Of a DNA stretch of 64,000 bases, positions 3,061 to 37,929 are shown piece by piece. The position numbers and the translations under genes are program-made. The notes beneath the pieces were generated by a model. It made no database searches, was not told the origin of the DNA, and saw only the letters and a program-made list of their open reading frames with translations. How positions within the stretch are numbered: position 1 is the stretch's first letter; the number at the start of each line of letters is the position of its first letter. Source of the stretch: Prorocentrum cordatum (taxonomy: Eukaryota; Sar; Dinophyceae; Prorocentrales; Prorocentraceae). The DNA lies in the NCBI GenBank assembly GCA_963575745.1, contig CAUYUJ010019077.1, positions 63,560 through 127,559 of the forward strand, read 5' to 3'.

Positions 3061-3364
3061 CCTCCTCCTCCTGCTTCTCCTCCTCCTTCTCCTCCTCCTC
3101 CTCCTCCCCCATCCTCCTCCTTCTCCTCGTCCGCCTCCTCCTCCTCATCATCCTCCTCCTCCTACTCCTCCTCCACCTCCTCCTCCTCATCCCCCTCCTC
3201 ATCCCCATCTCCTCCTCCTCTCCTCCTCTCCACTCCTCCTCCCCCTCCTCCTCCTCCTCTCCTCTCCTCCTCCTCCTACTCCTCCTCCTCCTCCTCTCCT
3301 CCTCCTCCTCCCCTCCTCCTCCTCCTCCTCCTCCTCCTCCTCCTCCTCCTCCTCCCCCTCCTCG
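3061..3364. repeat. (TCC)n microsatellite overlapping the PPR 3' end
   Basis: TCC-rich tract with TCA, CCC and TAC interruptions. Read on the minus strand it is GGA-rich and gives the PPR protein an acidic poly-Glu tail before a stop at 3199. It either begins an intron or has expanded into the last exon. Confidence 0.9.
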
Positions 3365-6872: not shown

Positions 6873-6904
6873 CGGACCGCATCCCGAGGTCCCCAGAGGG
6901 ACGA

Positions 6905-7180
6905 GGAGGAGATGGAGGAGAAGGAGGAGTACACGATGAGGAGGAGGAGGAGGAGGAGGAGGAGGAGGAGGAGGAGGAGGAGGAGGAGGAGGAGGAGGAG
7001 GAGGAGGAGGGGGAGGGGGAGGGAGGGGAGGGGAGGGGGGAGGAGGAGGAGGGGAGAGGAGGAGGAGGAGGAGGAGGAGGGAGGAGGAGGAGGATGAGGA
7101 GGAGGAGGAGGAGGAGGAGGGGGGGGAGGAGGCGGAGGAGGAGGCGAGGAAAAGGAGGAAAGAGGAGGAGACGGTGTGGA
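6905..7180. repeat. (AGG)n microsatellite
   Basis: GGA/AGG tract with G-run interruptions, directly upstream of the PPR start. It is pyrimidine-rich on the gene's sense strand. No promoter motif can be named. Confidence 0.9.
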
Positions 7181-8352
7181 GGCCTCCTGCCGAAGAGAGG
7201 TCCCGTGCGGGGACCTCCAGGGGCCCCATGGCCCCTGCAGGTGCCCAGGGGCCCACCATACAGTGGAGGCCAATCCATGGGGAACCTTCCACAAGAATCC
7301 CACCCCCGAGACCCCAGGACGTCCATTGTTTTTGCTGGTGAGTGTTGCCAGCCTCGTTCTGAGGCTGCGGCCCCCTTTTCCTCCCCCATCTCTGGTTAAT
7401 TCAAGCTTCGCGCGGCCCGCTTAGCTTCGACCGGAAGCGGTGCGCTCTCGACCCGCGAAGCAAAAAAAGTTGTTGCTGGCGTGGGAACGTCACGCTCTCC
7501 ATAGCAAGGCCATCGAAGCCCACGAAGCCCAGGGCACCCCGGAGGCAGGCGGGGTGCCTCTTGGCAGGGGCCCCGCACTGCAATGCCCCCTCTCTGCTCC
7601 TGCCCCCTTTGGGCGGCCTGCAGCCTGGCCACGGGTCGCGGCGGCGTCGGTGCTCTGCTCCTCGGCCAGGCGTTCCCCGTCGCGCACAGGCCTCGCGGCG
7701 CCGCGCCCTGCGGGATCGACAGCTCCGACTCTGGCCCAGGCGCGCGTCTGGAGAGGCGGCCGACCTGCCGGCGCATGCCACCCCGGGGCCCCTGCAGCGC
7801 GACACGCCATCCTGGAGAGCTCGGCCATCCTGAGCCTCCTTCTGCCCTCCGTCGGACCCTCAGAGCCTCGGGGACGGAGGACCGAGGTCATGGACGTTTC
7901 GGCCTTCGGGTCCCTTTCGGACCGCTCCGCAAAAGAGGCACCCTGCAGTCGTCGGTACAAGGGCGTGCGGCGCTGACGGCGAATCGTTCCCCCGAGCTCT
8001 GCACAAGGAGGATCAGCCAGCATCGAGTCGGAAAATCGAATGGACTCTGATCGTGCGTCGAATCGGACCGCATCGGCACGGAGTCGAAATCGAATCGGAT
8101 CGGCTGCACAAGGGTGCACAACAACGCCATGCAAGCTTCGGGTCGCGTCGGATCGGCGGGAAATCGAAGTAAAATCGGATCGGGCCGGCCAGCATCCACA
8201 TCGAATCGGATGGGTCGGACCGACATGGGCCCTGTGGAAGGCCGACCTGTCCGGACGGAATGCAAACCCGACACGCCTCGTTTCAACCTCCACGGGCCTC
8301 TGGGGTCGGCGGGGAGGCACCCCAGCGCCTCAAGAGTCACCCAGCAGCCCCC
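7181..8352. other. spacer with degenerate ATCGG-type repeats
   Basis: No supported gene; the longest frame (minus, up to 276 codons) has no recognisable motif. From about 8028 to 8225 the text is a worn short repeat of AATCGGATCGG-like words, for example at 8057, 8089 and 8200. Confidence 0.5.
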
Positions 8353-13068: not shown

Positions 13069-16000
13069 CTACAGGGGATATCCTGACAAACTCAGGACAT
13101 GCACCACTCCTAAGAGGAGCTCTCGGGCAGCTTCAAGCTCAGCCTCTGTGATAGTGCATTGTGCTGGGAGGAGGAAGCTTTTGAGACCTACATTCTGGCG
13201 CCAGCCAGTCAGATTATAGTAAGAAGAGGAGGGGAGAGCACTATACACATGACAATCCAGATACCAGCCACAGCCTACACCAAGACACGATCTCCCACCA
13301 TCAAAGCCTCCTTTGATCCCCGAGATCACAACTTTACAATCTTTCACGTCCTGAAGAAAACAAGTATCATAGTGTTCGAAACATTCACCTCTCCGCGCGG
13401 CCCACGTTAATTCATCGGCACGAGTATTACCCTCCCTATATACCCATTTCCACACATTCCGTCCTAAATTGGCAGCTCGTAGTCCGCATCTGTCGGCTAG
13501 GTCGTTTGTAGTGTCCTGCGCCCACATCACACAGTTAGCATACTTTCTATTAGTGATACTACTCAAGCCCTCCAACCACCTGATCACACATTGCGAATCC
13601 CCCATCAGTTCCACAGAGATCTTCCCTGGCACGAACTCAAATTCAGTATGGTCCTGGAATATAGCAATGAGACGCTTGGCCAACTTATCTGGGTCCTCCT
13701 GCTTCTTAGTCATCTCCTCCTCCTCCGATTCCTTCCAGGGCACGGGGTCTTTCAATACGCAAAGGTTCAACATCTCAGGAGCGTCCTTCAAGACAGTCCT
13801 CACAAAGAATATCCAGCTAGCCTCATCCCAAGCAATACCGTCAATCCAGTACTTCCCCGCCACCTCTTCGAACACTCTGGCCCACGGACACATTCCCAGA
13901 AGATTAGTAGACTGTCCCCTGGCTCTCGTCACCTCCCGTGCGCTCTGTGTGTCCAGGGTCGCAATAAAGTCATCCCGCCTATTAGTCCATTCAAAGCCTG
14001 CATGCAGCATGAGAAGCCTACTCTGAGCACCTCGGTCAACATGCTCCCCTTCACGAAAACGGAGCTTTCTCCCTGGAAAACGAACCTGCTTCTCCTGGGC
14101 CCCAACCTGCAACCTGGACGTGTTCTGGGACTCCCCTTCACGAGCTCGTTTTACCTCCCTGATGAGAGCACTCTTCCTCTTCCTCCTGTTTGACTCCTCC
14201 ACCTCCATCTCCATCATCTCCTCCTCCATGCTCTTCCCAATCAGCTGAGACCCTCCCGTTGCAGAGATACACAAGTCCTGCAGCGAGCCTGCCATATTCT
14301 CAAAGCACTCCGTGGCAACGTCCTTGGCCCACATGAACTGCCTGTGCAGGTACAGCTGGACCAAGGACGGTTTCCCTTCCTTGTGTAGCATCAAGCGCCC
14401 ACGTCGAAACATACGTGTCATGAAAGTCGCAAAACTCTCTCCATTGCGCTTCTGACGCCAGCACATACGAGAGAGCATCTTACCCTCCTCTTTGTGTAGA
14501 AGTCTCAGTACGCCAATATCAGAAGATGAACCCTCAACTCCATAAAGGATTTGAACTCTCACTCTAGCATCATATCTTTTGAATTTACGTCGCCAAGGAA
14601 TGACCATACTCTGATAATATCGTCGATCTCGCCAAAATGCTGTGATGCCTTTTTGCAGTCTGTATCGAATATCGTGATAATCATCCAGTGTTCTATTCAG
14701 CTTTGTGCCCAAGACGATGATCTCATCAACCTGCTTGAGTTCCACAATGGTCTGGTTGACAGCCTCAGATGGCGACACAACTGAGCTGGAACTTCCCAGT
14801 CTCTCCAATCCTGGTGGTGTCATGGTGACCACCAGCGGGTCGAACACATTTTTCAGCGCCCCAACATCCATATACTCAAGCGAGGTAGGCTTCCATCTGA
14901 GTCCCCATGCATGCAGTGGTACAGTGAGCTGCCAGATCATCTCCCTCAGTGCTGGTCTGGAGTCAGCAATCAAAACAAAGTTATCCGCCCAAATGAAGTG
15001 TGAGATAGTAATAGAAGCAGCCTCATGTGACAGCTTCAGGCCTATACCTTTTCGTTCCCAGTCCAAGAGAACCTTGCCCAGACAAGCAATCGTAACAATA
15101 TTCCAGATATCAGGGCCCTCAAGGGATCCCGTTTTAATACATGAGCTCCACGGTAAGCTCTCTGACTCCACTGGACCAAATCGAAACGTCGCTGTTACAT
15201 CTGCATTCTGCTCCAGGATCGCATACGCCAGCTCTGGGTCAACGTTGATATCATGCATCGCTCTATCTGCCATCGGTAACGTGATGTTGTCGAAGGCACA
15301 CTCAACGTCAAGAACTCCCACACAAGCATTCTCATGCTTGCCCCAGAGCCTGGCATGTCTGACCAAGTTCTTCAATCCTGCTGTTATCTCGATGCATTTT
15401 CGTCCCTCATGAAAGCCATACAAGTTGATTCCAGTCCGAGGCGTATTCTGTTCAACATGGCGGCTGAGTAAGATGCACAAACAAGCCGTATACCATTTTG
15501 AAAGCACGCTATTGAGGGCCAAAGTACGCGTATTGGTGAACTCTGGCTTCTTGGTATCTTTTAGAATGAGCGTGGCTAATAATTTTCTCCAAGACGGCGG
15601 TGACTGCAATCGTCTGGCATACAATTGTTGGAAGCAATCCAAAACCACTCTGAGTGCCTCCCAAGACAGACTACGTAGAAGAGCTGCTGATATGCCATCA
15701 TAGCCAACTGCTTTTCCCACCTTGAGGCGAGCTCTCGCTTTATGTAGGATACCCATCGTGATGGGAGAAGAACCTGCATTGTGTCGAGCGTGCTGGATTG
15801 CTCGCTGCCTAAGTCGAGCCAAGCATTCTACATTTTGTTGATGGAGTGTTTGACTGGAGTATTTCTTCCGGGCTATTTTGGCGATTTCCTTTTTCCAAGA
15901 CTCCCGATTCTCAGTCATGGTACCATCAATTTTCATGTGTGTGACGATCGTGTGTGGTTTACCCTCATCCCGATACTTATATTCCAAGATACGCCTACGA

Positions 16001-17289
16001 AGTTCACGTCGGACCCGATTCCACCTACGCCGAGAATCTTTGAACTCCTTCTCATCCACCTCCCCCTTCTTCCACCCCTTGTGCACCCCATAGTGGTAGT
16101 CCCGAATCTCCTTCTCCTCCTCCGAGAGTTTCAGATCGTTGCCAATCGAGGTCTTCAGCTCGAAGAGCTTTTTGTCCTCAACCGCACCAGCCTTCAAACG
16201 TTCCTCGAAGATATCTAAAGAGATCGTCCTCCACCTAGTCTTGCACACCTGCTGCACCATCAATCCCTCCTGGTCCTCAACCTTCTCCTCCACACTATCC
16301 CTCATCCTTTTCATCGCTCTTCTCCTATCACTGTTCGAAATCCCCAGGACACGCTCAGCAATAGCACGACGCACCTCGACGTCTTTCCCTGGAATGGGTC
16401 TCCATCTCGCCAGGCTGCCAAGAACACGAGGTCCTTTACCAACACGAGCAGGGGGTCCAGGGAGAAAACAACTAACCATCTTATGATCACTCCAACGGTC
16501 AACTCTTTTATCTCCGAGCGGCTTGACAAAATCGCATCTGGGGTCTAGTCCAGTGTGACACCAATCCTTAGGTACAGCTATGTAGTCCAGAACCTTATAT
16601 GTATTCATGCTACTTCGGAAGGTCGTGCATCTCTCGCCGTGCGTGTTTATCAGGGTCAACTGAAGACGTGCCATGGCCATACACAAGCTCCTACTCATGT
16701 AGTCTCTGTACTTCTCACGCATTTTCTCAAACCCTCCCTGACTGCGCTTACCTGTGGACGCCTGCACACCTTTCCCAGTGACCTGAACCCTATCAATGGT
16801 GACATCCTGGTGTACCTCAACATTCGCATCCATCATGATAACAACCTCCTTTATCCGAAACTTTTTCCTAAGTTCCATGATCATTTCAACAAGCTCTAAC
16901 AAGATGTCCTGATAGAAGGTGAACATGCGATCCATTTGGGCAGCAGAGCGCCCATAGAATTCAACATGCGGCAAATACAATGAGGCAACTATAAGAGCAC
17001 CGATTCTGGGACCCCGCAGGGCCACAACAACGAATCTTCTACGCTCTCTAGTCTCAAGAATGCTATCCTGCAACCCATTTGCAATCAAAACCCCTGCATT
17101 CCCCTCAATACATCTGCGATCGCGAGGATCTTCCCCAAGAACATGTTGCGTGGACCACTTGGCTTCATACCCTAATTCGTGCACGAGGTACAACGGTACA
17201 TTCTGGCACTCCTGGAGGCCGATAAGTTCCATCCCCTCATGTTTTAAGAAACCCAAGGCATTCACCGTTTCGACTCCATCACCCTTCAT
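13069..17289 (-). CDS. LINE A ORF2: APE endonuclease, reverse transcriptase, permuted RNase H
   Basis: Polyprotein of 1406 residues from the first ATG. APE endonuclease about 1-280: E27 in LQECQ, D154/N156 in MMDANVEV, D268/H269 in WSDHKMV. RT about 510-800: D661 in LDVECAFD and WADN at 767-770, where most LINEs have F/Y-A-D-D. A conserved WKPTSLEYM follows. The C-terminus (about 1225-1400) has RNase H motifs in the order GDS (D1231), GNTRAD (D1292), FDGG (D1330), TEAELEA (E1382/E1384), a circular permutation. The frame is open upstream to the ORF1 stop at 17332, and the APE motif SWN lies before this ATG, so translation must begin upstream or read through. It should copy the element by target-primed reverse transcription (family knowledge). 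Confidence 0.9.
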   Translation of the reverse strand: MKGDGVETVNALGFLKHEGMELIGLQECQNVPLYLVHELGYEAKWSTQHVLGEDPRDRRCIEGNAGVLIANGLQDSILETRERRRFVVVALRGPRIGALIVASLYLPHVEFYGRSAAQMDRMFTFYQDILLELVEMIMELRKKFRIKEVVIMMDANVEVHQDVTIDRVQVTGKGVQASTGKRSQGGFEKMREKYRDYMSRSLCMAMARLQLTLINTHGERCTTFRSSMNTYKVLDYIAVPKDWCHTGLDPRCDFVKPLGDKRVDRWSDHKMVSCFLPGPPARVGKGPRVLGSLARWRPIPGKDVEVRRAIAERVLGISNSDRRRAMKRMRDSVEEKVEDQEGLMVQQVCKTRWRTISLDIFEERLKAGAVEDKKLFELKTSIGNDLKLSEEEKEIRDYHYGVHKGWKKGEVDEKEFKDSRRRWNRVRRELRRRILEYKYRDEGKPHTIVTHMKIDGTMTENRESWKKEIAKIARKKYSSQTLHQQNVECLARLRQRAIQHARHNAGSSPITMGILHKARARLKVGKAVGYDGISAALLRSLSWEALRVVLDCFQQLYARRLQSPPSWRKLLATLILKDTKKPEFTNTRTLALNSVLSKWYTACLCILLSRHVEQNTPRTGINLYGFHEGRKCIEITAGLKNLVRHARLWGKHENACVGVLDVECAFDNITLPMADRAMHDINVDPELAYAILEQNADVTATFRFGPVESESLPWSSCIKTGSLEGPDIWNIVTIACLGKVLLDWERKGIGLKLSHEAASITISHFIWADNFVLIADSRPALREMIWQLTVPLHAWGLRWKPTSLEYMDVGALKNVFDPLVVTMTPPGLERLGSSSSVVSPSEAVNQTIVELKQVDEIIVLGTKLNRTLDDYHDIRYRLQKGITAFWRDRRYYQSMVIPWRRKFKRYDARVRVQILYGVEGSSSDIGVLRLLHKEEGKMLSRMCWRQKRNGESFATFMTRMFRRGRLMLHKEGKPSLVQLYLHRQFMWAKDVATECFENMAGSLQDLCISATGGSQLIGKSMEEEMMEMEVEESNRRKRKSALIREVKRAREGESQNTSRLQVGAQEKQVRFPGRKLRFREGEHVDRGAQSRLLMLHAGFEWTNRRDDFIATLDTQSAREVTRARGQSTNLLGMCPWARVFEEVAGKYWIDGIAWDEASWIFFVRTVLKDAPEMLNLCVLKDPVPWKESEEEEMTKKQEDPDKLAKRLIAIFQDHTEFEFVPGKISVELMGDSQCVIRWLEGLSSITNRKYANCVMWAQDTTNDLADRCGLRAANLGRNVWKWVYREGNTRADELTWAARRGECFEHYDTCFLQDVKDCKVVISGIKGGFDGGRSCLGVGCGWYLDCHVYSALPSSSYYNLTGWRQNVGLKSFLLPAQCTITEAELEAARELLLGVVHVLSLSGYPL

Positions 17290-17331
17290 TTTGATATTCC
17301 ACGATGCGGTCCGAATCCGCTGTGGCCGTCG

Positions 17332-18552
17332 TCAGAAACGATTTTGTTGGTTGAGCTCGGTCTGCCAGTTCGCAACGTGGATCGACTTGCTGATCTTCTC
17401 AACCTCCGAGGTCTTCAACTTCCATCCCTCATCAGATGACCACGTGCCCAGGCATACCCTGTTGCCCATATCATTCTTATTTGGAAAACCCCAAGCCCAG
17501 GAAATACTGGGTGGTCCATATTCCACCCTCACAGTAGCATTCAGCTCTTGAGGAGTACTGCCCTTACGCTTGTGATACGTGGCGATGAGCTTCGATCCCG
17601 CCTGTATTTGTTGAACCTTCCATGGGGCCGTCTCCACCTTCACACTGATGTAACTCTGACTCGCTGGGCCAAGCTTATCCTCAGCCCAAAGCTCTCCAGT
17701 CCTGGACGTAACTGCTTCATGAATAGCTCGCTGGAGGTCCCAAATCTGATCTTTCGTAATACTACTTTCAAGAATGAACTTGATCCTGAACAAGCCATAT
17801 GGTTTGCGTGTATTCTCTCTGTGAGTCGCCATATCATCAAGAACTTTCACTGGCACCTGCTTCGAGCGATCTTCAAACTTACAAAAGATATTCTCAACCA
17901 TCCACGTAACAATCCTAGTGCCCCTTTCCTCCGACATGATATTGTTCGTCCTCGCCGTCAGGTCCCTCGGGTCTCCTGAAGTCCAGCCTTGCAAACTGAT
18001 CCATCCTGGTTTGAAGTCGGCCCTGGTTTTGTTCCATTCGATACGTGAGGCTGTGAATCTCGTCGAACCTGACGATCCAGCCTCGGACGGTGGCCCTCCA
18101 GGTTCAGCACCAAGATTCAGAGGGGGGCGTCCTTGGATGGCGGCAAAGAGCTGTGCGTTTATTTTCTTCTGCTCCTCCTGACCCTTCTGAAGATCAGATA
18201 TATCTTTTCTCAGAGGTTCCATTTCCCGCTGGACATCTTTTACCATCTCATTCTTAATATCTGTGAAAGTCGTCTTCAACTCATCTTTCATCAAAGAGAA
18301 CTCACCTCTGAGAATGGAAATCGTAACCACCTGCTCCTCACCAACTGCTGCGCCTCTACCATGACCTTTAGCAGCAACATGGGGGGACTCTGGCGGACGA
18401 GCACGTTTTCCAGGAAGAGCCATATCAGCATCCCCATCCCCCTTAAGTTGTTGCCCTGATACTAACGCTGCAGCAGCCGCCAGTTCACCTGCTTCCCCTT
18501 CAGCCTGCTGCTGCTGCCGAAGAAGTGCTGCCTGCTGTTCTTCAGTCGTCAT
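17332..18552 (-). CDS. LINE A ORF1 protein
   Basis: Presumed RNA-binding chaperone (ORF1p) of the LINE, 406 residues from the first in-frame ATG. It has a Gln-rich N-terminus, a basic GKRARPP patch, a heptad-rich region likely to form a coiled coil (from FSLMKDELKTTF to EEQKKINAQL), and a C-terminal domain shared with LINE B ORF1 (ITKDQIWDLQRAI, VETAPWK). The reading frame stays open upstream to a stop at 18796 without another ATG, so a non-AUG start or upstream splicing cannot be excluded. It ends NQQNRF then TGA. The next codons continue in frame into ORF2 (see findings). Confidence 0.8.
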   Translation of the reverse strand: MTTEEQQAALLRQQQQAEGEAGELAAAAALVSGQQLKGDGDADMALPGKRARPPESPHVAAKGHGRGAAVGEEQVVTISILRGEFSLMKDELKTTFTDIKNEMVKDVQREMEPLRKDISDLQKGQEEQKKINAQLFAAIQGRPPLNLGAEPGGPPSEAGSSGSTRFTASRIEWNKTRADFKPGWISLQGWTSGDPRDLTARTNNIMSEERGTRIVTWMVENIFCKFEDRSKQVPVKVLDDMATHRENTRKPYGLFRIKFILESSITKDQIWDLQRAIHEAVTSRTGELWAEDKLGPASQSYISVKVETAPWKVQQIQAGSKLIATYHKRKGSTPQELNATVRVEYGPPSISWAWGFPNKNDMGNRVCLGTWSSDEGWKLKTSEVEKISKSIHVANWQTELNQQNRF

Positions 18553-18876
18553 TTCTGGAATGTCAAGGTGATTGCGACGTATCTGGTGATTGAGTGCCAG
18601 AACGAAATTGTCGATCTGATCGATATCCAAAGAACAACCTTCGTCCACTCCCAAGTCAGAGAACTCGTCACCAACAATGGGGGCCTCCTGGGCCTGCGCC
18701 GTCTTTCTCCTCTTGTAAACTCTGTCAAGTACCCTGAAATCGTACTCCGAAGGGGACCTCTTCCTCTCTCTCTCAGCCGTGACGAGTAATGAAGATCAAT
18801 CCACAACAATGCTCAAGAACGCACAAGCGAGAGACAAAATGGGGTGTGTGGTATACAGTTCAGGTATGGAGAACAA

Positions 18877-23276: not shown

Positions 23277-26200
23277 TTAGGTAGGTCGTAGCAGAGCGCA
23301 CGCCACCTTAGCAGCAGCTCTCGTCAGGGCAGCGCAGGCAGCTAGTTCACAGCAGGTTACCGTGCTACCAGGAGGCAAGCTCATCGCCTCCTCGGCCACA
23401 TCGTGCCAATGGAAGCTGTGCGAGCTGGTGCAGGAGGAAGAGGAGGAGGAGGAGGAGGAGGAGGAGATGGGAAAATCAACCTGCACGCTGGAACCCCTAC
23501 CTACAACGCCAATCTGAAGCCACCACCCACCTCCACATCCTTCATTACTGACACCCCCATCGAATGCACCACGGAGAGCAGTCTTACGAGTACTGAGGAA
23601 CTTATCATATGCAAACCAGCGAGTAATAGTTTGGCCACCTCTGGCCTCCCACGACAATTTATCCGCACGCTCATTACCCTCACGAAAGAAATGCTTATAC
23701 AGATTCTGTCCCGATGCAGGTGAGGTCAGTCCCCATCCAGACAGCATCGATACCGTATTTTGTAGTGTTCCCACCAGTCGTACATACTGCTTGTTGCGAA
23801 TCTGCCACTCACCACACATCCAGTTTACAACAGTCTTACTATCTCCCAAGATCTCCATCCCAAGACGCTCAATATTCTCACACCTCCACTCCGTTTCATT
23901 CTCCTCCTCCTCTGCCTTCACATGTCTCACACCAGGCGGCCTGGGTAGAACAAACAAGTCGAACAAGTGTTGCATACCAATCACAGTCAGCAAATGCTTG
24001 CAGTATTTCTCACGGGACCCAGCGGAACTGTCGAATGAGAGGTACCACTCACAACCAAAGAGATCGCACAAGCACCAGTCCCACGCAGTATGTCCACGGG
24101 GGCGGCCGCCTATGTTCATGCGTGTCAGCTGCTTCCTATCTTTTACAGGCATTGCTAGAATACATGTGTCACGATGTTCCGTCCACTTCCCCCTTCCATG
24201 TAACATGGCCAGCCTAGATATCATCCATTCACGTGACATGTCCGACTCCTCAGGTATGGCAGGCTGATCATCTGGTGTACGCCGGCGACAGCCACTCGAC
24301 ATCTGGGATATCTGAGATACATGATATGTTTGAGAAGTCGCCGCCGCCGCCATCGCCCGAGTTTTCCTCTGACGCCGATTTGGTACCGTCTCTCCCTCCT
24401 CCTCCTCTGTGTGTGTTGTGTATCTCCTCATACGAATACTTGCAGCAACTGAGACATCCTTAGCCCAATCCCAACAACGAAATATCCATATCTGCACCGC
24501 ACTTCGGAATCCAAGTCCAGCAAAACTCTGTCGTCCCGCTTTGTATCGCCTACGTTGAAACTCAGACCAGCCTTCAGTTCTCCGCTTGCGTATACCTGAC
24601 ATTATAGCTAGACATCTGCCTTCAAAATAGTGAACAGCAGCAATGGTAGAATAGTCGGGCGTTCTGCCCTCACAGTTGAATAATAATGCAGCAATCACTT
24701 TAGCTTGATAGCGAGTAAATCTTTCAGCCAAGTCAATCCCAGAACAGCGGTAATACGCGATTTCCCCAAAGAACATCCTCTGGGCTTTCTGGAGCATGGC
24801 CTCTGAGTCCGAGTGGTCCTTCCAGGTCTCCTCCAGAGTGGCTCCCAGGATCTCAAACGCTTGAACACGCGGTAGGACCACTTCTCGGGTCCCAAGAGCG
24901 GCGTCACTAGACGGCACCAGCACACGGATATCCTGCTCAGGGGACGGCGGGATGCCAGGCGGCGCACCAAAGTAAATATACATCAAAGATTTCGGCTTCC
25001 AGGTCATTCCTGCATTCATCAGGGGGATACTCATGTCACGCACCATCAACTCAAGGTCAGTGCGGGTCTTCGCATACAACAAAAGATTATCTGCCCAGAA
25101 ACTGTGGGTCATACGCTCACCATTGAACATGCGCTCATCATTTTCCAATTTGATGCCGTACTGCGTTTCTTGCCTCCATCTGTCGATAACATCTCTCCAG
25201 AGTACAATAGAAACTGCCAGAAAAATCATAGGTCCCTCTACTCCTCCCGTTCGAATAGATTTGTCCCAATAGACCGCTGACGATGCCTCGATGCCCTCGA
25301 AGCTGGCCACGCACTGATTATCCATCATGGGTTCAATCAACGCCACAATGAGATCAGCAGGTATGTCAAGAGCACGAAGACAGCGCATGGCGAGGCACGG
25401 AGTAACATTATCGAAAGCTTGTAAGATATCAAGATTGGCAAGCCACAAACTGTCTCCTTTGCCCCAGACAGCGGAGTGCTGGCTGAGCCTCTTGGCAACG
25501 CTGGTGATTTCCGATGTTTTGCGTCCCGATCTGAATCCGCACAGGCATACATAGTGTCGGTGCTCCTCAATCCTCTTCTCGATCAACATCACAATACATG
25601 TCATGTACCATTTCATAAGACACGACTGTAGACATAGCATACGTGTATCTGTCAAATGTTGTATGTCCATTTCTTTTGGCATGAGTGTGGCAGCTAGTTG
25701 ACGCCAACTGTCGGGACAACATAACCTTCTGGAATACACACCTTGGAAGCTCACCAGAACACGTCGCACAGATGCCCACGAGAGCTGTTTCAACATCGTG
25801 ACAGTCACGTTGTCGGGACCTGGGGCCTTTCCCGTGGACAGCTTCGCCCTCGCCCGCAGCAGGAGCGACATCGAGAACACCTCTGAGGATCCGCTTCCCG
25901 AACATAGACCACGCAGCGACTGAAGCTCACGCAGGGTCACCTCTCTGGCCTCGGGGTCCTCCACCTTAGACTTCATGTGCCCCAATATCTCGTCCCCCCA
26001 CTCCTCGCGGTTCTGAGACTCCATCCCGTTGGCAAGGATCAACGTCTCCGTCTTGGCCCTCCTCCTCCTCCTCGTGTTCATTTCCGTCCTCCACCTCTGT
26101 ACTCTTGCCTCTAGCCTCCTTCTTTCTCTCCTCACAATCTTTGAGCACCGTTTAGCCTCCTCTCTATCCCCCCGACGAAGAGCTTCACGTTTACTTGCCT

Positions 26201-27374
26201 GGGCGGCCCAGTGGATTTCGGATTTCTTTGGCACATTATTCCTGGGATTGATATCTTTCTGGGGGGTCTCCTCGGCGGCCTTTATGAGGTCAGGTCCCAG
26301 CGTATCCAACATCTCCTGTCGATCCTCTGGGTCAGCATTTTCCTGGCACAGAGCACGGTAACGACTGCCCCGATCGTCCATGTTCTTCGCAAACTCCAGC
26401 TGTGACACCGGTTGCAAGTGGATGAATTTTCGAGCAGGCTGGGTCCGTCTCTTCGCAGACGGTGCACAAGACAAGCGAACAACTATGCAGGCGTGGTCAG
26501 ACAGCGCACGCTCGTATCTGCTGCAAGGGTGCTCCGTCCAGGCGTGGCCGACTTCCGAAGGCAGCATCCAGCCAACGGTGAGCTCCTGCCTGTGTAAACG
26601 ACGGCTGACACCAACATAGTCGAGCACCTTCTCCACCCCCGTACCTGATTTGAAAGTAACCCTCCTCTGCCCGAATGTGTTCTCCATCCTGATGCCCCAG
26701 AGCCCGCAGAAGTCCAGTAGGGCCCTCCTCATCGATTGCAACCTAGACGCCCGTCGAATTTCGAAGCCCGAGACAAGCCTATGAGGTCTGGCTTTGCGTG
26801 CACCACGTTTTGTTTGAGTCATATACGGGTTGCCGTCATCCGCTCCCTCCTCCATCCCAGTATCAATCTCCGTAGACTCCCCAGCAATCCCAGACGCCTC
26901 CAGAAGCCCTGATCCAGTAACTCTAAAGCCGTTGACCTCCGAATCTGGCTCGAGTTCGACGTTAGCATCTGTCAAGAAGACCAGGTCCTGCGGCTGCTTC
27001 GGGAACTTAGACCTATGTGTGCGAAGCACTCGGGATATATCAAACAATATCTGTTCATACACATCATGCTCATACTGTTCTTCCGTAAGGGCATTGATAC
27101 TCTCATGTGGCATATATGCAACAATAACCGTAACACTAGAATAACTACAAATGACAAAACCTTTGCCACGATATGTGGCTCTGAGCGAGTCTCTCCAAGA
27201 CTTAGACATAATCACCGCAGCCTTCCGACAAGTACTCCGAAAAATTGTGTAACCTCGCATGCTGAGATCACGAACTGAAAGGAACTGACACTCGCACAAC
27301 CCCGCGAGTCCCACATCTAAACGACGTAGTGAATTAATTATGTCATGGCCGTTCTCTGCACCTGCCCGACGCAC
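23277..27374 (-). CDS. LINE B ORF2: APE endonuclease, reverse transcriptase, permuted RNase H
   Basis: Counted from a GTG at 27374, 1365 residues. APE: E28 in LCECQ, D136/N138 in LTDANVE, D293/H294 in LSDHACIV. RT: D649 in ANLDILQAFD and WADN at 760-763, followed by WKPKSLMYI. RNase H-like end in permuted order: D1178 in ILGDSK, D1238 in EGNERAD, D1272 in AFDGG, E1343 in CCELAACAAL. A poly-Ser run (about 1304-1314), coded by a TCC expansion, lies between the last two motifs. The frame continues upstream as ASWNVRRAGAEN with no ATG back to the ORF1 stop at 27405-27407. The first in-frame ATG is M39, after the catalytic Glu, so normal AUG initiation would give a broken endonuclease. Confidence 0.9.
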   Translation of the reverse strand: MRRAGAENGHDIINSLRRLDVGLAGLCECQFLSVRDLSMRGYTIFRSTCRKAAVIMSKSWRDSLRATYRGKGFVICSYSSVTVIVAYMPHESINALTEEQYEHDVYEQILFDISRVLRTHRSKFPKQPQDLVFLTDANVELEPDSEVNGFRVTGSGLLEASGIAGESTEIDTGMEEGADDGNPYMTQTKRGARKARPHRLVSGFEIRRASRLQSMRRALLDFCGLWGIRMENTFGQRRVTFKSGTGVEKVLDYVGVSRRLHRQELTVGWMLPSEVGHAWTEHPCSRYERALSDHACIVVRLSCAPSAKRRTQPARKFIHLQPVSQLEFAKNMDDRGSRYRALCQENADPEDRQEMLDTLGPDLIKAAEETPQKDINPRNNVPKKSEIHWAAQASKREALRRGDREEAKRCSKIVRRERRRLEARVQRWRTEMNTRRRRRAKTETLILANGMESQNREEWGDEILGHMKSKVEDPEAREVTLRELQSLRGLCSGSGSSEVFSMSLLLRARAKLSTGKAPGPDNVTVTMLKQLSWASVRRVLVSFQGVYSRRLCCPDSWRQLAATLMPKEMDIQHLTDTRMLCLQSCLMKWYMTCIVMLIEKRIEEHRHYVCLCGFRSGRKTSEITSVAKRLSQHSAVWGKGDSLWLANLDILQAFDNVTPCLAMRCLRALDIPADLIVALIEPMMDNQCVASFEGIEASSAVYWDKSIRTGGVEGPMIFLAVSIVLWRDVIDRWRQETQYGIKLENDERMFNGERMTHSFWADNLLLYAKTRTDLELMVRDMSIPLMNAGMTWKPKSLMYIYFGAPPGIPPSPEQDIRVLVPSSDAALGTREVVLPRVQAFEILGATLEETWKDHSDSEAMLQKAQRMFFGEIAYYRCSGIDLAERFTRYQAKVIAALLFNCEGRTPDYSTIAAVHYFEGRCLAIMSGIRKRRTEGWSEFQRRRYKAGRQSFAGLGFRSAVQIWIFRCWDWAKDVSVAASIRMRRYTTHTEEEEGETVPNRRQRKTRAMAAAATSQTYHVSQISQMSSGCRRRTPDDQPAIPEESDMSREWMISRLAMLHGRGKWTEHRDTCILAMPVKDRKQLTRMNIGGRPRGHTAWDWCLCDLFGCEWYLSFDSSAGSREKYCKHLLTVIGMQHLFDLFVLPRPPGVRHVKAEEEENETEWRCENIERLGMEILGDSKTVVNWMCGEWQIRNKQYVRLVGTLQNTVSMLSGWGLTSPASGQNLYKHFFREGNERADKLSWEARGGQTITRWFAYDKFLSTRKTALRGAFDGGVSNEGCGGGWWLQIGVVGRGSSVQVDFPISSSSSSSSSSSCTSSHSFHWHDVAEEAMSLPPGSTVTCCELAACAALTRAAAKVACALLRPT

Positions 27375-27404
27375 ATTCCATGACGCAATGGTGTCGTGGC
27401 ACCT

Positions 27405-28451
27405 CTAGTTCGTACTGGAAATCCTCGCTCGCAACTCATCAATGTTGATCCCTGGCTCAAGCTGATTCATTGCACGAGTGATCTCCCAGCCATTCTGCAG
27501 AGAGAACTTGGCCACAATCTTCCCTGGAGGTGGTAAGTGGTCACTGGAGCCCCACATGAACGTAATCGGTGGTCCCGTCTCAGCCCTGAGATTCGAATGA
27601 TGCTTCTTGAAACTCTTGAACTTGGCCTGAAAGATCCCAGCGGCATCCAGATGGGGCTTCTTCCAGGGGGGGGCCTCCACGTGGACCTTGAGGGCCCTGG
27701 GAGCGTGCTGGAGTTTGTTGTCGGCGATCGCGGCAACGAGTCGACGACGAAGATCCCACAGCTGGTCACTGGTAACCCCATTCTGGAAATAGAGCCGAGC
27801 ACGCGAATACCCCCACGCCTCTCTACCTGTGTTGAACCTCTTGGATTGGTTCAGGTCCAGAAACTCCTTCACACCACTGAACCATTCTCCAGCCAGGACC
27901 TCATTCAGCAGTGAATTCAACGCCTGCTGTGATAACATCTCCTCCTGACGCTTCTCTGCATCCCTCCAGTCCGTCACCCATCCCTTGAGCTCGACGAACG
28001 ATGGGGTGAAATTCTGCACTGACTGCCGAGTTTCCGCCGAGGACGCTGTCGTAGAGGTGCCTGCTCTGGGGGCCCCACCTGCAGGTGCCTGCTGGAGCTG
28101 GATTATCTGGAGCCTCTGATCCTCAACCTTCTTAGTAATAGCATCTATGTCCGTCATCGCCTGCTGTACATTTTTCTCCACCGAATCAACACGAGCATTG
28201 AGCTGGGTGCCGAGATCCGTGATGCTTCGATGTGTTGATTGGAAGCCCTCCGTCATCTTACCTCCCAGAGATGCAACAAGCGTCGTGATCTTGTCCATCC
28301 CCTTTGTCATGGCCTCCTCGAGGCCTTCAACCGTCTGAATTGTGACCCGTTTTCCCTCTGGGACCTCCTCCTCCTTGGCTCCTGGAACGGGCATATCAGT
28401 GGCGTCCATAGCGAAAACCTCGGGGACCGCAGCAGCTGATGAGGCAGCCAT
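27405..28451 (-). CDS. LINE B ORF1 protein
   Basis: About 348 residues from the ATG at 28451; codons upstream of it overlap the 5' leader. An N-terminal region with heptads (GLEEAMTKGMDKITTLVASL through MTDIDAITKKVEDQRLQI) suggests a coiled coil. The C-terminal domain matches LINE A ORF1 (LKGW, TSDQLWDLRRRLVAAI, VEAPPWKK). Likely role: RNA binding and RNP formation. It ends ARISSTN then TAG, and the same frame continues directly into ORF2. Confidence 0.8.
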   Translation of the reverse strand: MAASSAAAVPEVFAMDATDMPVPGAKEEEVPEGKRVTIQTVEGLEEAMTKGMDKITTLVASLGGKMTEGFQSTHRSITDLGTQLNARVDSVEKNVQQAMTDIDAITKKVEDQRLQIIQLQQAPAGGAPRAGTSTTASSAETRQSVQNFTPSFVELKGWVTDWRDAEKRQEEMLSQQALNSLLNEVLAGEWFSGVKEFLDLNQSKRFNTGREAWGYSRARLYFQNGVTSDQLWDLRRRLVAAIADNKLQHAPRALKVHVEAPPWKKPHLDAAGIFQAKFKSFKKHHSNLRAETGPPITFMWGSSDHLPPPGKIVAKFSLQNGWEITRAMNQLEPGINIDELRARISSTN

Positions 28452-28737
28452 CTTGCCGTCTGAGATATTACAAGGGATATTCCACTTCGCACAGAACGAT
28501 CGATCTTCTCGAGTACGTTTGAGATGTGCACTCAACTGATGAAAGTTATATGGGGCAACAGGATGGTGAGGTAAAGTGGGAGAGAGATCAGGTGGCCCAG
28601 ATGGTATGTCGACTAGAGAATCCTTATCGTCGTGTCGAGCTCTACCAACCTGTCTGGCAAGATACTCCCACTCCCAATGTCCGAAGTTGGCTCCCCAGCG
28701 GTCCAAATCGATCGATTGACTCTGGCTCGTCCCGTCC

Positions 28738-28835
28738 AGCTCGACGCGGCAAAATGCCGCAAACAAGTGCAGGCGGCCTGCTCGCAAACAAGTGCAAACA
28801 ATGCCGCAAACAAGTGCAGGCGTCGCCGAAGTGGC
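28738..28835 (-). repeat. short tandem words in the LINE B 5' UTR
   Basis: GCAAACAAGTGCA, in places preceded by GCC, recurs three times with a partial copy (AAATGCCGC) ahead of them, between the leader and ORF1. Small 5' UTR tandem repeats are common in LINE promoters; a promoter role here is inference. Confidence 0.5.
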
Positions 28836-28869
28836 CCGATCGCCACGCGCCCCCCGCGCGGCGGGCCAG

Positions 28870-28959
28870 GGGCAGGCTGCCTGACTGCACGATGCAGCTC
28901 GAGTGAGCCCCCCGACGGGACAAGGCCGAGGGAGAGCGGGAGGTAAACTCCGCTTCCTC
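28870..28959 (-). promoter_or_regulatory. structured 5' leader of LINE B
   Basis: Same leader as family A: GAGGAAGCGGAG at the end, CCCGTCGGGGGGCTC in the middle and stem CTGCA-TCG-TGCAG at 28885-28897. Differences from family A are concentrated where pairing is kept or in loops. Confidence 0.6.
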
Positions 28960-28969
28960 AACCTTTCTT

Positions 28970-32121: not shown

Positions 32122-35100
32122 CTACAGGGGATATCCTGACAAACTCAGGACATGCACCACTCCTAAGAGGAGCTCTCGGGCAGCTTCAAGCTCAGCCTCT
32201 GTGATAGTGCATTGTGCTGGGAGGAGGAAGCTTTTGAGACCTACATTCTGGCGCCAGCCAGTCAGATTATAGTAAGAAGAGGAGGGGAGAGCACTATACA
32301 CATGACAATCCAGATACCAGCCACAGCCTACACCAAGACACGATCTCCCACCATCAAAGCCTCCTTTGATCCCCGAGATCACAACTTTACAATCTTTCAC
32401 GTCCTGAAGAAAACAAGTATCATAGTGTTCGAAACATTCACCTCTCCGCGCGGCCCACGTTAATTCATCGGCACGAGTATTACCCTCCCTATATACCCAT
32501 TTCCACACATTCCGTCCTAAATTGGCAGCTCGTAGTCCGCATCTGTCGGCTAGGTCGTTTGTAGTGTCCTGCGCCCACATCACACAGTTAGCATACTTTC
32601 TATTAGTGATACTACTCAAGCCCTCCAACCACCTGATCACACATTGCGAATCCCCCATCAGTTCCACAGAGATCTTCCCTGGCACGAACTCAAATTCAGT
32701 ATGGTCCTGGAATATAGCAATGAGACGCTTGGCCAACTTATCTGGGTCCTCCTGCTTCTTAGTCATCTCCTCCTCCTCCGATTCCTTCCAGGGCACGGGG
32801 TCTTTCAATACGCAAAGGTTCAACATCTCAGGAGCGTCCTTCAAGACAGTCCTCACAAAGAATATCCAGCTAGCCTCATCCCAAGCAATACCGTCAATCC
32901 AGTACTTCCCCGCCACCTCTTCGAACACTCTGGCCCACGGACACATTCCCAGAAGATTAGTAGACTGTCCCCTGGCTCTCGTCACCTCCCGTGCGCTCTG
33001 TGTGTCCAGGGTCGCAATAAAGTCATCCCGCCTATTAGTCCATTCAAAGCCTGCATGCAGCATGAGAAGCCTACTCTGAGCACCTCGGTCAACATGCTCC
33101 CCTTCACGAAAACGGAGCTTTCTCCCTGGAAAACGAACCTGCTTCTCCTGGGCCCCAACCTGCAACCTGGACGTGTTCTGGGACTCCCCTTCACGAGCTC
33201 GTTTTACCTCCCTGATGAGAGCACTCTTCCTCTTCCTCCTGTTTGACTCCTCCACCTCCATCTCCATCATCTCCTCCTCCATGCTCTTCCCAATCAGCTG
33301 AGACCCTCCCGTTGCAGAGATACACAAGTCCTGCAGCGAGCCTGCCATATTCTCAAAGCACTCCGTGGCAACGTCCTTGGCCCACATGAACTGCCTGTGC
33401 AGGTACAGCTGGACCAAGGACGGTTTCCCTTCCTTGTGTAGCATCAAGCGCCCACGTCGAAACATACGTGTCATGAAAGTCGCAAAACTCTCTCCATTGC
33501 GCTTCTGACGCCAGCACATACGAGAGAGCATCTTACCCTCCTCTTTGTGTAGAAGTCTCAGTACGCCAATATCAGAAGATGAACCCTCAACTCCATAAAG
33601 GATTTGAACTCTCACTCTAGCATCATATCTTTTGAATTTACGTCGCCAAGGAATGACCATACTCTGATAATATCGTCGATCTCGCCAAAATGCTGTGATG
33701 CCTTTTTGCAGTCTGTATCGAATATCGTGATAATCATCCAGTGTTCTATTCAGCTTTGTGCCCAAGACGATGATCTCATCAACCTGCTTGAGTTCCACAA
33801 TGGTCTGGTTGACAGCCTCAGATGGCGACACAACTGAGCTGGAACTTCCCAGTCTCTCCAATCCTGGTGGTGTCATGGTGACCACCAGCGGGTCGAACAC
33901 ATTTTTCAGCGCCCCAACATCCATATACTCAAGCGAGGTAGGCTTCCATCTGAGTCCCCATGCATGCAGTGGTACAGTGAGCTGCCAGATCATCTCCCTC
34001 AGTGCTGGTCTGGAGTCAGCAATCAAAACAAAGTTATCCGCCCAAATGAAGTGTGAGATAGTAATAGAAGCAGCCTCATGTGACAGCTTCAGGCCTATAC
34101 CTTTTCGTTCCCAGTCCAAGAGAACCTTGCCCAGACAAGCAATCGTAACAATATTCCAGATATCAGGGCCCTCAAGGGATCCCGTTTTAATACATGAGCT
34201 CCACGGTAAGCTCTCTGACTCCACTGGACCAAATCGAAACGTCGCTGTTACATCTGCATTCTGCTCCAGGATCGCATACGCCAGCTCTGGGTCAACGTTG
34301 ATATCATGCATCGCTCTATCTGCCATCGGTAACGTGATGTTGTCGAAGGCACACTCAACGTCAAGAACTCCCACACAAGCATTCTCATGCTTGCCCCAGA
34401 GCCTGGCATGTCTGACCAAGTTCTTCAATCCTGCTGTTATCTCGATGCATTTTCGTCCCTCATGAAAGCCATACAAGTTGATTCCAGTCCGAGGCGTATT
34501 CTGTTCAACATGGCGGCTGAGTAAGATGCACAAACAAGCCGTATACCATTTTGAAAGCACGCTATTGAGGGCCAAAGTACGCGTATTGGTGAACTCTGGC
34601 TTCTTGGTATCTTTTAGAATGAGCGTGGCTAATAATTTTCTCCAAGACGGCGGTGACTGCAATCGTCTGGCATACAATTGTTGGAAGCAATCCAAAACCA
34701 CTCTGAGTGCCTCCCAAGACAGACTACGTAGAAGAGCTGCTGATATGCCATCATAGCCAACTGCTTTTCCCACCTTGAGGCGAGCTCTCGCTTTATGTAG
34801 GATACCCATCGTGATGGGAGAAGAACCTGCATTGTGTCGAGCGTGCTGGATTGCTCGCTGCCTAAGTCGAGCCAAGCATTCTACATTTTGTTGATGGAGT
34901 GTTTGACTGGAGTATTTCTTCCGGGCTATTTTGGCGATTTCCTTTTTCCAAGACTCCCGATTCTCAGTCATGGTACCATCAATTTTCATGTGTGTGACGA
35001 TCGTGTGTGGTTTACCCTCATCCCGATACTTATATTCCAAGATACGCCTACGAAGTTCACGTCGGACCCGATTCCACCTACGCCGAGAATCTTTGAACTC

Positions 35101-36342
35101 CTTCTCATCCACCTCCCCCTTCTTCCACCCCTTGTGCACCCCATAGTGGTAGTCCCGAATCTCCTTCTCCTCCTCCGAGAGTTTCAGATCGCTGCCAATC
35201 GAGGTCTTCAGCTCGAAGAGCTTTTTGTCCTCAACCGCACCAGCCTTCAAACGTTCCTCGAAGATATCTAAAGAGATCGTCCTCCACCTAGTCTTGCACA
35301 CCTGCTGCACCATCAATCCCTCCTGGTCCTCAACCTTCTCCTCCACACTATCCCTCATCCTTTTCATCGCTCTTCTCCTATCACTGTTCGAAATCCCCAG
35401 GACACGCTCAGCAATAGCACGACGCACCTCGACGTCTTTCCCTGGAATGGGTCTCCATCTCGCCAGGCTGCCAAGAACACGAGGTCCTTTACCAACACGA
35501 GCAGGGGGTCCAGGGAGAAAACAACTAACCATCTTATGATCACTCCAACGGTCAACTCTTTTATCTCCGAGCGGCTTGACAAAATCGCATCTGGGGTCTA
35601 GTCCAGTGTGACACCAATCCTTAGGTACAGCTATGTAGTCCAGAACCTTATATGTATTCATGCTACTTCGGAAGGTCGTGCATCTCTCGCCGTGCGTGTT
35701 TATCAGGGTCAACTGAAGACGTGCCATGGCCATACACAAGCTCCTACTCATGTAGTCTCTGTACTTCTCACGCATTTTCTCAAACCCTCCCTGACTGCGC
35801 TTACCTGTGGACGCCTGCACACCTTTCCCAGTGACCTGAACCCTATCAATGGTGACATCCTGGTGTACCTCAACATTCGCATCCATCATGATAACAACCT
35901 CCTTTATCCGAAACTTTTTCCTAAGTTCCATGATCATTTCAACAAGCTCTAACAAGATGTCCTGATAGAAGGTGAACATGCGATCCATTTGGGCAGCAGA
36001 GCGCCCATAGAATTCAACATGCGGCAAATACAATGAGGCAACTATAAGAGCACCGATTCTGGGACCCCGCAGGGCCACAACAACGAATCTTCTACGCTCT
36101 CTAGTCTCAAGAATGCTATCCTGCAACCCATTTGCAATCAAAACCCCTGCATTCCCCTCAATACATCTGCGATCGCGAGGATCTTCCCCAAGAACATGTT
36201 GCGTGGACCACTTGGCTTCATACCCTAATTCGTGCACGAGGTACAACGGTACATTCTGGCACTCCTGGAGGCCGATAAGTTCCATCCCCTCATGTTTTAA
36301 GAAACCCAAGGCATTCACCGTTTCGACTCCATCACCCTTCAT
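32122..36342 (-). CDS. LINE A ORF2, copy 2
   Basis: 1406 residues, identical to copy 1 except residue 384, Asn in copy 1 and Ser here (T at 16139 versus C at 35192). All APE, RT (WADN) and permuted RNase H motifs are kept, so both copies appear intact and recently active. As in copy 1 the frame is open upstream to the ORF1 stop at 36385. Confidence 0.9.
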   Translation of the reverse strand: MKGDGVETVNALGFLKHEGMELIGLQECQNVPLYLVHELGYEAKWSTQHVLGEDPRDRRCIEGNAGVLIANGLQDSILETRERRRFVVVALRGPRIGALIVASLYLPHVEFYGRSAAQMDRMFTFYQDILLELVEMIMELRKKFRIKEVVIMMDANVEVHQDVTIDRVQVTGKGVQASTGKRSQGGFEKMREKYRDYMSRSLCMAMARLQLTLINTHGERCTTFRSSMNTYKVLDYIAVPKDWCHTGLDPRCDFVKPLGDKRVDRWSDHKMVSCFLPGPPARVGKGPRVLGSLARWRPIPGKDVEVRRAIAERVLGISNSDRRRAMKRMRDSVEEKVEDQEGLMVQQVCKTRWRTISLDIFEERLKAGAVEDKKLFELKTSIGSDLKLSEEEKEIRDYHYGVHKGWKKGEVDEKEFKDSRRRWNRVRRELRRRILEYKYRDEGKPHTIVTHMKIDGTMTENRESWKKEIAKIARKKYSSQTLHQQNVECLARLRQRAIQHARHNAGSSPITMGILHKARARLKVGKAVGYDGISAALLRSLSWEALRVVLDCFQQLYARRLQSPPSWRKLLATLILKDTKKPEFTNTRTLALNSVLSKWYTACLCILLSRHVEQNTPRTGINLYGFHEGRKCIEITAGLKNLVRHARLWGKHENACVGVLDVECAFDNITLPMADRAMHDINVDPELAYAILEQNADVTATFRFGPVESESLPWSSCIKTGSLEGPDIWNIVTIACLGKVLLDWERKGIGLKLSHEAASITISHFIWADNFVLIADSRPALREMIWQLTVPLHAWGLRWKPTSLEYMDVGALKNVFDPLVVTMTPPGLERLGSSSSVVSPSEAVNQTIVELKQVDEIIVLGTKLNRTLDDYHDIRYRLQKGITAFWRDRRYYQSMVIPWRRKFKRYDARVRVQILYGVEGSSSDIGVLRLLHKEEGKMLSRMCWRQKRNGESFATFMTRMFRRGRLMLHKEGKPSLVQLYLHRQFMWAKDVATECFENMAGSLQDLCISATGGSQLIGKSMEEEMMEMEVEESNRRKRKSALIREVKRAREGESQNTSRLQVGAQEKQVRFPGRKLRFREGEHVDRGAQSRLLMLHAGFEWTNRRDDFIATLDTQSAREVTRARGQSTNLLGMCPWARVFEEVAGKYWIDGIAWDEASWIFFVRTVLKDAPEMLNLCVLKDPVPWKESEEEEMTKKQEDPDKLAKRLIAIFQDHTEFEFVPGKISVELMGDSQCVIRWLEGLSSITNRKYANCVMWAQDTTNDLADRCGLRAANLGRNVWKWVYREGNTRADELTWAARRGECFEHYDTCFLQDVKDCKVVISGIKGGFDGGRSCLGVGCGWYLDCHVYSALPSSSYYNLTGWRQNVGLKSFLLPAQCTITEAELEAARELLLGVVHVLSLSGYPL

Positions 36343-36384
36343 TTTGATATTCCACGATGCGGTCCGAATCCGCTGTGGCCGTCG

Positions 36385-37605
36385 TCAGAAACGATTTTGT
36401 TGGTTGAGCTCGGTCTGCCAGTTCGCAACGTGGATCGACTTGCTGATCTTCTCAACCTCCGAGGTCTTCAACTTCCATCCCTCATCAGATGACCACGTGC
36501 CCAGGCATACCCTGTTGCCCATATCATTCTTATTTGGAAAACCCCAAGCCCAGGAAATACTGGGTGGTCCATATTCCACCCTCACAGTAGCATTCAGCTC
36601 TTGAGGAGTACTGCCCTTACGCTTGTGATACGTGGCGATGAGCTTCGATCCCGCCTGTATTTGTTGAACCTTCCATGGGGCCGTCTCCACCTTCACACTG
36701 ATGTAACTCTGACTCGCTGGGCCAAGCTTATCCTCAGCCCAAAGCTCTCCAGTCCTGGACGTAACTGCTTCATGAATAGCTCGCTGGAGGTCCCAAATCT
36801 GATCTTTCGTAATACTACTTTCAAGAATGAACTTGATCCTGAACAAGCCATATGGTTTGCGTGTATTCTCTCTGTGAGTCGCCATATCATCAAGAACTTT
36901 CACTGGCACCTGCTTCGAGCGATCTTCAAACTTACAAAAGATATTCTCAACCATCCACGTAACAATCCTAGTGCCCCTTTCCTCCGACATGATATTGTTC
37001 GTCCTCGCCGTCAGGTCCCTCGGGTCTCCTGAAGTCCAGCCTTGCAAACTGATCCATCCTGGTTTGAAGTCGGCCCTGGTTTTGTTCCATTCGATACGTG
37101 AGGCTGTGAATCTCGTCGAACCTGACGATCCAGCCTCGGACGGTGGCCCTCCAGGTTCAGCACCAAGATTCAGAGGGGGGCGTCCTTGGATGGCGGCAAA
37201 GAGCTGTGCGTTTATTTTCTTCTGCTCCTCCTGACCCTTCTGAAGATCAGATATATCTTTTCTCAGAGGTTCCATTTCCCGCTGGACATCTTTTACCATC
37301 TCATTCTTAATATCTGTGAAAGTCGTCTTCAACTCATCTTTCATCAAAGAGAACTCACCTCTGAGAATGGAAATCGTAACCACCTGCTCCTCACCAACTG
37401 CTGCGCCTCTACCATGACCTTTAGCAGCAACATGGGGGGACTCTGGCGGACGAGCACGTTTTCCAGGAAGAGCCATATCAGCATCCCCATCCCCCTTAAG
37501 TTGTTGCCCTGATACTAACGCTGCAGCAGCCGCCAGTTCACCTGCTTCCCCTTCAGCCTGCTGCTGCTGCCGAAGAAGTGCTGCCTGCTGTTCTTCAGTC
37601 GTCAT
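36385..37605 (-). CDS. LINE A ORF1 protein, copy 2
   Basis: Same 406-residue product as copy 1 (coiled coil plus the shared C-terminal domain), with the same TGA and in-frame continuation into ORF2. I see no amino-acid difference. Confidence 0.8.
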   Translation of the reverse strand: MTTEEQQAALLRQQQQAEGEAGELAAAAALVSGQQLKGDGDADMALPGKRARPPESPHVAAKGHGRGAAVGEEQVVTISILRGEFSLMKDELKTTFTDIKNEMVKDVQREMEPLRKDISDLQKGQEEQKKINAQLFAAIQGRPPLNLGAEPGGPPSEAGSSGSTRFTASRIEWNKTRADFKPGWISLQGWTSGDPRDLTARTNNIMSEERGTRIVTWMVENIFCKFEDRSKQVPVKVLDDMATHRENTRKPYGLFRIKFILESSITKDQIWDLQRAIHEAVTSRTGELWAEDKLGPASQSYISVKVETAPWKVQQIQAGSKLIATYHKRKGSTPQELNATVRVEYGPPSISWAWGFPNKNDMGNRVCLGTWSSDEGWKLKTSEVEKISKSIHVANWQTELNQQNRF

Positions 37606-37929
37606 TTCTGGAATGTCAAGGTGATTGCGACGTATCTGGTGATTGAGTGCCAGAACGAAATTGTCGATCTGATCGATATCCAAAGAACAACCTTCGTCCA
37701 CTCCCAAGTCAGAGAACTCGTCACCAACAATGGGGGCCTCCTGGGCCTGCGCCGTCTTTCTCCTCTTGTAAACTCTGTCAAGTACCCTGAAATCGTACTC
37801 CGAAGGGGACCTCTTCCTCTCTCTCTCAGCCGTGACGAGTAATGAAGATCAATCCACAACAATGCTCAAGAACGCACAAGCGAGAGACAAAATGGGGTGT
37901 GTGGTATACAGTTCAGGTATGGAGAACAA

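Follow-up and report, generated by a model that had tools for sequence, protein, structure and literature searches.

Does the C-terminal end of a dinoflagellate retroelement encode an RNase H whose chain has been circularly permuted? The question is raised by a 64,000-nucleotide stretch of Prorocentrum cordatum DNA (contig CAUYUJ010019077.1, positions 63,560 to 127,559; here the window), which carries on its minus strand three long interspersed nuclear elements, LINEs A, B and C, each with two open reading frames, ORF1 and ORF2. The RNase H fold itself is textbook knowledge and is common to integrases, Argonautes and resolvases. An earlier note on this DNA had placed the motifs GDS, GNTRAD, FDGG and EAELEA, in that order, at the end of LINE A ORF2, in the span 13069..17289, and had proposed an inherited and functional permutation. 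The span is correct and belongs to an open frame running 17331-13069; the residue numbers of that note count from the Met at 17289, and the full-frame numbering used below adds 14 in LINE A and 10 in LINE B. We consider it highly probable that the C-terminal ORF2 domain is a circularly permuted archaeal-type (DEDRD) RNase HI. The observations that carry this view are the order of the motifs, their conservation, the profile identity of the first half, the order of strands and helices in structural models, and matches of each half to known structures at low Z.

Order of the motifs and conservation of the acids

In LINE A the four motifs contribute D1245, D1306, D1344 and the pair E1396/E1398, and LINE B has the same order with D1188, D1248, D1282 and E1353, in agreement with the earlier reading once renumbered. 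Of the two glutamates named for EAELEA, the second (formerly E1384, now E1398) is conserved, whereas the first position varies among E, C, Q, D, S and N. Elsewhere on the contig the permuted order recurs in LINE D, whose ORF2 is intact (contig 144179-148513), and in LINEs E and F, whose frames are broken; LINE F lacks the FDGG Asp. LINEs A to F, among which C is a copy of A, all show the rotated order and not the conventional chain order from strand 1 to helix E.

A motif scan found all four motifs in 14 of 29 database proteins; in each of the 14 they are permuted in this way and similarly spaced. Another 13 hold two or three motifs; the helix E motif precedes FDGG, the swapped order, in 8 of these, and the remaining ones (P0018, P0019, P0022, P0026 and P0028) have motifs from one half only and hence are uninformative on order. 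Of the last two proteins, P0030 shows a single motif and P0009, which is an internal piece of LINE A itself, shows none. These relatives were drawn from JGI and ENA sequence sets, five EukProt records labelled Pyramimonas sp. and one MMETSP transcript. The Pyramimonas label may reflect contamination, because P0023, P0025 and P0030 are 82–88% identical to LINE B or E over 43–119 residues. The MMETSP transcript, P0028, shares 89% identity with the C-terminal end of LINE B along 140 residues and has, by eye, a LINE F-like stretch ahead of it; an element related to LINE B is apparently transcribed. Viral contigs gave 24 and 29 pattern matches and prokaryote contigs one, none of which was confirmed.

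Conservation was measured on an alignment of 17 full domains, those of LINEs A, B, D, E and F and of 12 database proteins; LINE C, P0001 (near-identical to P0002), P0004 (the same as LINE B over 201 residues) and fragments were omitted. Pairwise identity among the 17 domains is 25–94%, with a median of 34% over the 136 pairs. The GDS Asp, the NxxAD Asp and the AEL Glu are kept in 17/17 domains and the FDGG Asp in 16/17, the loss being in the broken LINE F. Acidic residues are kept in at least 15 of the 17 domains at six columns; besides the four RNase H acids these are the glutamates of VELxGDS and of REGN. The position of the conserved His of RNase HI is Arg in all 17, and Arg instead of His marks the archaeal type of RNase H, according to section 9 of PMC4640811. 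The arrangement is thus common to 17 domains at this level of divergence, as expected of an inherited permutation, and the conservation of the acids is the support for the claim that the domain may be functional. Decay or chance as the source of the motif order was rejected on the conservation across these domains and the database relatives.

The earlier note had also named a conventional FDGG–AE pair upstream of GDS as counter-evidence; none was found, either by pattern or in the model. No FDG-type and no AE-x-x-A-type match was found upstream of GDS in LINEs A, B and D, P0001 and pieces of LINEs E and F, the loose matches there being limited to VEGS (residue 932 in LINE A, 360 in P0001) and IEGL (residue 639 in LINE D). 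The 130 residues ahead of strand 4 in LINE A are modelled by AlphaFold2 as helices only, at low confidence. A hidden conventional copy of RNase H upstream was rejected on the pattern scan and this model.

The permuted fold might be genuine and no longer cut RNA, serving instead only to bind the hybrid or to shape ORF2. The reverse transcriptase (RT) of these elements has an unusual motif C as well, WADN (see below), so that the chemistry of the element has possibly shifted. Against such a loss of cutting, all four acids are conserved despite the low overall identity, and LINEs A and C are 99.88% identical across the whole copy (about 6,041 bp), with a single residue difference in ORF2; because of this identity the A/C family must be taken to have moved or been duplicated recently. 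We regard a non-cutting domain as unlikely, though it is the alternative that fares best.

Profile comparisons and structural models

The reference profile was built from 33 of 63 prokaryote loci with archaeal-type RNase HI, the 63 having been found with a query consisting of the C-terminal half, which favours that half; the 30 unused loci were shorter than 130 residues as read, many of them from Gracilibacteria, possibly through reading with the standard code. Against the 33 sequences, the first half of the LINE domain (strand 4 to helix E) alone has an hhalign E of 3.6e-13 and a probability of 97.9%. The domain in its native order aligns over 67 columns, again from strand 4 to helix E (E 5.2e-12, score 78). 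When it is rotated by a cut between helix E and strand 1, the alignment extends to 129 columns (E 8.8e-13, score 82), with FDGG placed on FDG and AEL on AEY.

The NCBIfam model of archaeal RNase HI, NF041175, is matched below its cut-off by all 8 rotated members (E no greater than 1, best 1.4e-6), the alignment for LINE A spanning the GDS-REGN half. Whether rotated or native, 7 of 8 members match RVT_3, with a best E of 0.0019 rotated and 0.016 native and with LINE A below cut-off; among five proteins compared in both orders, rotation added 1.2–3.9 bits in four, and P0008 was matched in neither order. For PDB entries, rotation changed E from 0.0095 to 0.0028 (2ehg) and from 0.063 to 0.0085 (3u3g). 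LINE A alone had no match in PDB by sequence at E up to 10, and a Pfam scan of LINE A and LINE B ORF2 detected the RT and no RNase H.

Several features of these comparisons weigh against the permuted reading, and all concern the second half. Taken alone it scores 17.1, across 14 columns around FDGG, a value equalled by 4 of 400 shuffles. The gain on rotation traces to helix A preceding strand 4: the first half scores 80.6 when helix A is joined to it and 77.9 when strands 1–3 are, which is no gain. Any cut from column 90 to column 210 gives a score of 81.7–83.2. Shuffling strands 1–3 alone still reached the real score in 56 of 200 trials and the column count in 3 of 200; with the entire second half shuffled, the real score was reached in 2 of 300 trials and at least 125 columns were aligned in 1 of 300. 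Judging from these shuffles and part-by-part scores, sequence by itself supports helix A fairly well and strands 1–3 weakly.

Two AlphaFold2 models, of the LINE A and LINE B domains, agree with the proposed permutation. In both the predicted order is strand 4, helix B, helix D, strand 5, helix E, strand 1, strand 2, strand 3 and helix A (strand 5 is not called in every detail), and the strand and helix complement of the RNase HI fold is present. Structural alignment pairs C-terminal halves of RNase H with the first half of model A and N-terminal halves with the second half of model B, in both cases at low Z. The models place about 20 residues between helix E and strand 1. The chain ends 20–25 residues beyond the Glu of helix A in 10 of the 14 four-motif proteins and 33–39 residues beyond it in the other four; the distance is 22 residues in LINEs A and B.

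With strands 1–3 contributing no score, one could suppose that the GDS-REGN half alone is a remnant of an RNase H and that the FDGG-AEL segment belongs to some other, unrelated C-terminal domain whose motifs only resemble those of the enzyme. That segment, however, is modelled as exactly the missing unit, strand 1, strand 2, strand 3 and helix A; it matches N-terminal parts of RNase H1 at 20–26% identity in the alignment of model B; and it keeps the Asp and the Glu as counted above. We consider this explanation improbable. A different, order-preserved fold in place of RNase H would fit the PelC, CinA and TolB N-domain-like folds that top the Foldseek and VIA lists, a further point against permutation, and seems to us very improbable.

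The LINE elements and other features of the window

Coordinates of the elements and of the candidate RNase H domains are collected in Table 1. LINE A ORF2 comprises 1420 codons following an in-frame stop, with an ORF1 of 487 codons upstream in the same frame, and the protein of LINE B (28967-23277) is about 30% identical to that of LINE A over 918 aligned columns. The stop between ORF1 and ORF2 is TGA in LINE A (17332-17334) and TAG in LINE B (27405-27407), and LINE C likewise has a single stop in one frame. Because an endonuclease-like motif follows this single stop, starting at codon 9 (LINE A) or codon 7 (LINE B) past it with no ATG in between, translation of ORF2 may depend on readthrough of the stop or on reinitiation. 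The start of ORF2 is called endonuclease-like on the motifs ASWN, DAN and SDH, present in LINEs A and B; Pfam endonuclease models gave no match at E up to 1.

The RT region matches RVT_1 above cut-off, with E 1.4e-8 in LINE A (residues 594-815) and 2.2e-11 in LINE B, and its best solved relatives are LINE-1 ORF2. Each of the six lineages examined has WADN as its motif C: LINEs A, B (ORF2 residues 770-773), D, E and F, and P0001. Compared with FADD of LINE-1 ORF2, Asn takes the place of the second catalytic-site Asp. WADN looks like a mark of the clade and may change metal use.

The 3' ends of LINE A (about 13001), LINE B (about 23190) and LINE D (contig about 144125) enter one common satellite, AGGT(T/G)GACGGTTTACCGCCGGCGCC, whose core was counted 13 times within the window and a further 15 times in the 60 kb of contig to its right. 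Since the three ends run into the same satellite, insertion of these LINEs into the repeat is likely site-specific. The flank of LINE C differs, yet AGGT also follows there, and no such junction was seen for LINE E or F. Satellite arrays with units of 174–177 bp and 337 bp surround the LINEs (10072-43140).

Table 1. Positions of the LINE features in the window (all on the minus strand; residues in full-frame ORF2 numbering)
Feature	Position	Strand	Basis or remark
LINE A ORF2 with stop	13069..17331	-	Endonuclease-like start, RT, putative permuted RNase H
LINE A ORF1	17332..18795	-	In frame with ORF2; TGA immediately before ORF2
LINE A RT motif C, WADN replacing F/YADD	14980..14991	-	Aligned with FADD of LINE-1 ORF2
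LINE A putative permuted RNase H domain (residues 1236-1420)	13072..13626	-	Motifs, AlphaFold2 model, first-half profile match to archaeal RNase HI
LINE A D1245, Asp of GDS, domain start (strand 4)	13597..13599	-	
LINE A D1306, Asp of REGNTRAD (helix E)	13414..13416	-	
LINE A D1344, Asp of FDGG (strand 1, here behind helix E)	13300..13302	-	
LINE A E1398, conserved Glu of EAELEA (helix A, here C-terminal helix)	13138..13140	-	
LINE B ORF2 with stop	23277..27404	-	ORF reading, RVT_1 match
LINE B ORF1	27405..28967	-	In frame with ORF2; terminates in TAG
LINE B putative permuted RNase H domain (residues 1179-1375; D1188, D1248, D1282, E1353)	23280..23870	-	
LINE C (copy of A) ORF2 and ORF1	32122..37848	-	ORF2 = 36384-32122
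LINE C (copy of A) putative permuted RNase H domain	32125..32679	-	

Outside the LINEs, a single minus-strand frame at 49962-54701 fuses a PIF1-like helicase with a ubiquitin hydrolase (UCH), and a neighbouring frame at 59490-61454, on the same strand, carries DUF6570; we take the two to be possibly part of a Helitron-like element, presumably by the association of such genes. Two frames with PPR repeats (3202-7400, minus strand) adjoin long trinucleotide repeats. The window contains no match to a spliced-leader remnant.

Comparison with known RNases H and a proposed origin

The closest known system is the archaeal-type RNase HI (Sulfolobus tokodaii 2ehg/3aly, Halobacterium 4e19, RVT_3), which has in common with the LINE domain the profile of the GDS-REGN half and the D-E-D-R-D residues. 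It is built from the same set of strands and helices as the LINE models, in which the chain is rotated, with strand 4 first and helix A last; the distance from GDS to RExN is 55 residues in LINE A and 43 in the Sulfolobus piece. Conventional RNases H (PF00075) exist in the same genome: L004 and L007 have WTDG, AEL, TDS and GNAAAD in one open frame, and the best 8 of 150 scored matches span position 4–7 to 139–140 of the 141-position model (150 of 2607 candidates were scored, in an assembly of 4.13 Gb and 21,875 contigs).

Plant L1 elements with archaea-like RNase H (Smyshlyaev 2013) resemble the present ones in carrying a DEDRD-type RNase H in a LINE. Their RNase H domain reportedly has the conventional order, and they differ in RT motif C, which is WADN here and not F/YADD. 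RNase H occurs in many LINE clades, with the archaeal type in oomycete Utopia and plant L1, according to section 9 of PMC4640811; in the Utopia LINEs, as described there, an archaeal-type RNase H was also captured by a LINE, but lies upstream of the RT. The unfamiliarity of the arrangement in LINEs, remarked on in the earlier note, is consistent with the open-licence literature, where searches that included exact phrases turned up no retroelement with a permuted RNase H. Neither 'permut' nor 'circular' occurs in the main text of the RNase H superfamily survey PMC3985635 by word search, 'permut' is absent from the searched parts of PMC5718144, PMC4640811 and the dinoflagellate LINE paper PMC5890265, and PMC2628886, in the parts consulted, treats circular permutation in general terms only.

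The permutation would most simply have occurred once, in the common ancestor of this LINE family. The new ends would lie in the loop between helix A and strand 4, so that the chain starts at strand 4 and ends past helix A, while a linker of the length seen in the models would bridge the old ends at helix E and strand 1. The four metal-binding acids, D1245, D1306, D1344 and E1398, would thereby be rebuilt in space into a presumably closed active site. A usual way for a circularly permuted protein to arise is a tandem duplication after which one copy loses its first half and the other its second half, and a duplication with subsequent loss of the outer halves perhaps took place here. The most likely task of the domain, judged by its position and by analogy to other LINEs bearing RNase H, would be to degrade the template RNA of the RNA:DNA hybrid left by target-primed reverse transcription.

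We are inclined, by a modest degree, to go further and propose an entire LINE clade, its marks being a WADN RT, ORF1 and ORF2 linked by an in-frame stop and satellite-targeted insertion, with a natural and active permuted archaeal-type RNase HI, to our knowledge the first such permutation in a retroelement. The permutation would account for the domain being overlooked, or recognised by half, in standard searches (Pfam, NCBIfam, Foldseek), and the permuted domain would supply a clade marker for LINEs. A natural permutant spread over many diverged mobile elements would show that a catalytic domain can be re-cut with its site retained.
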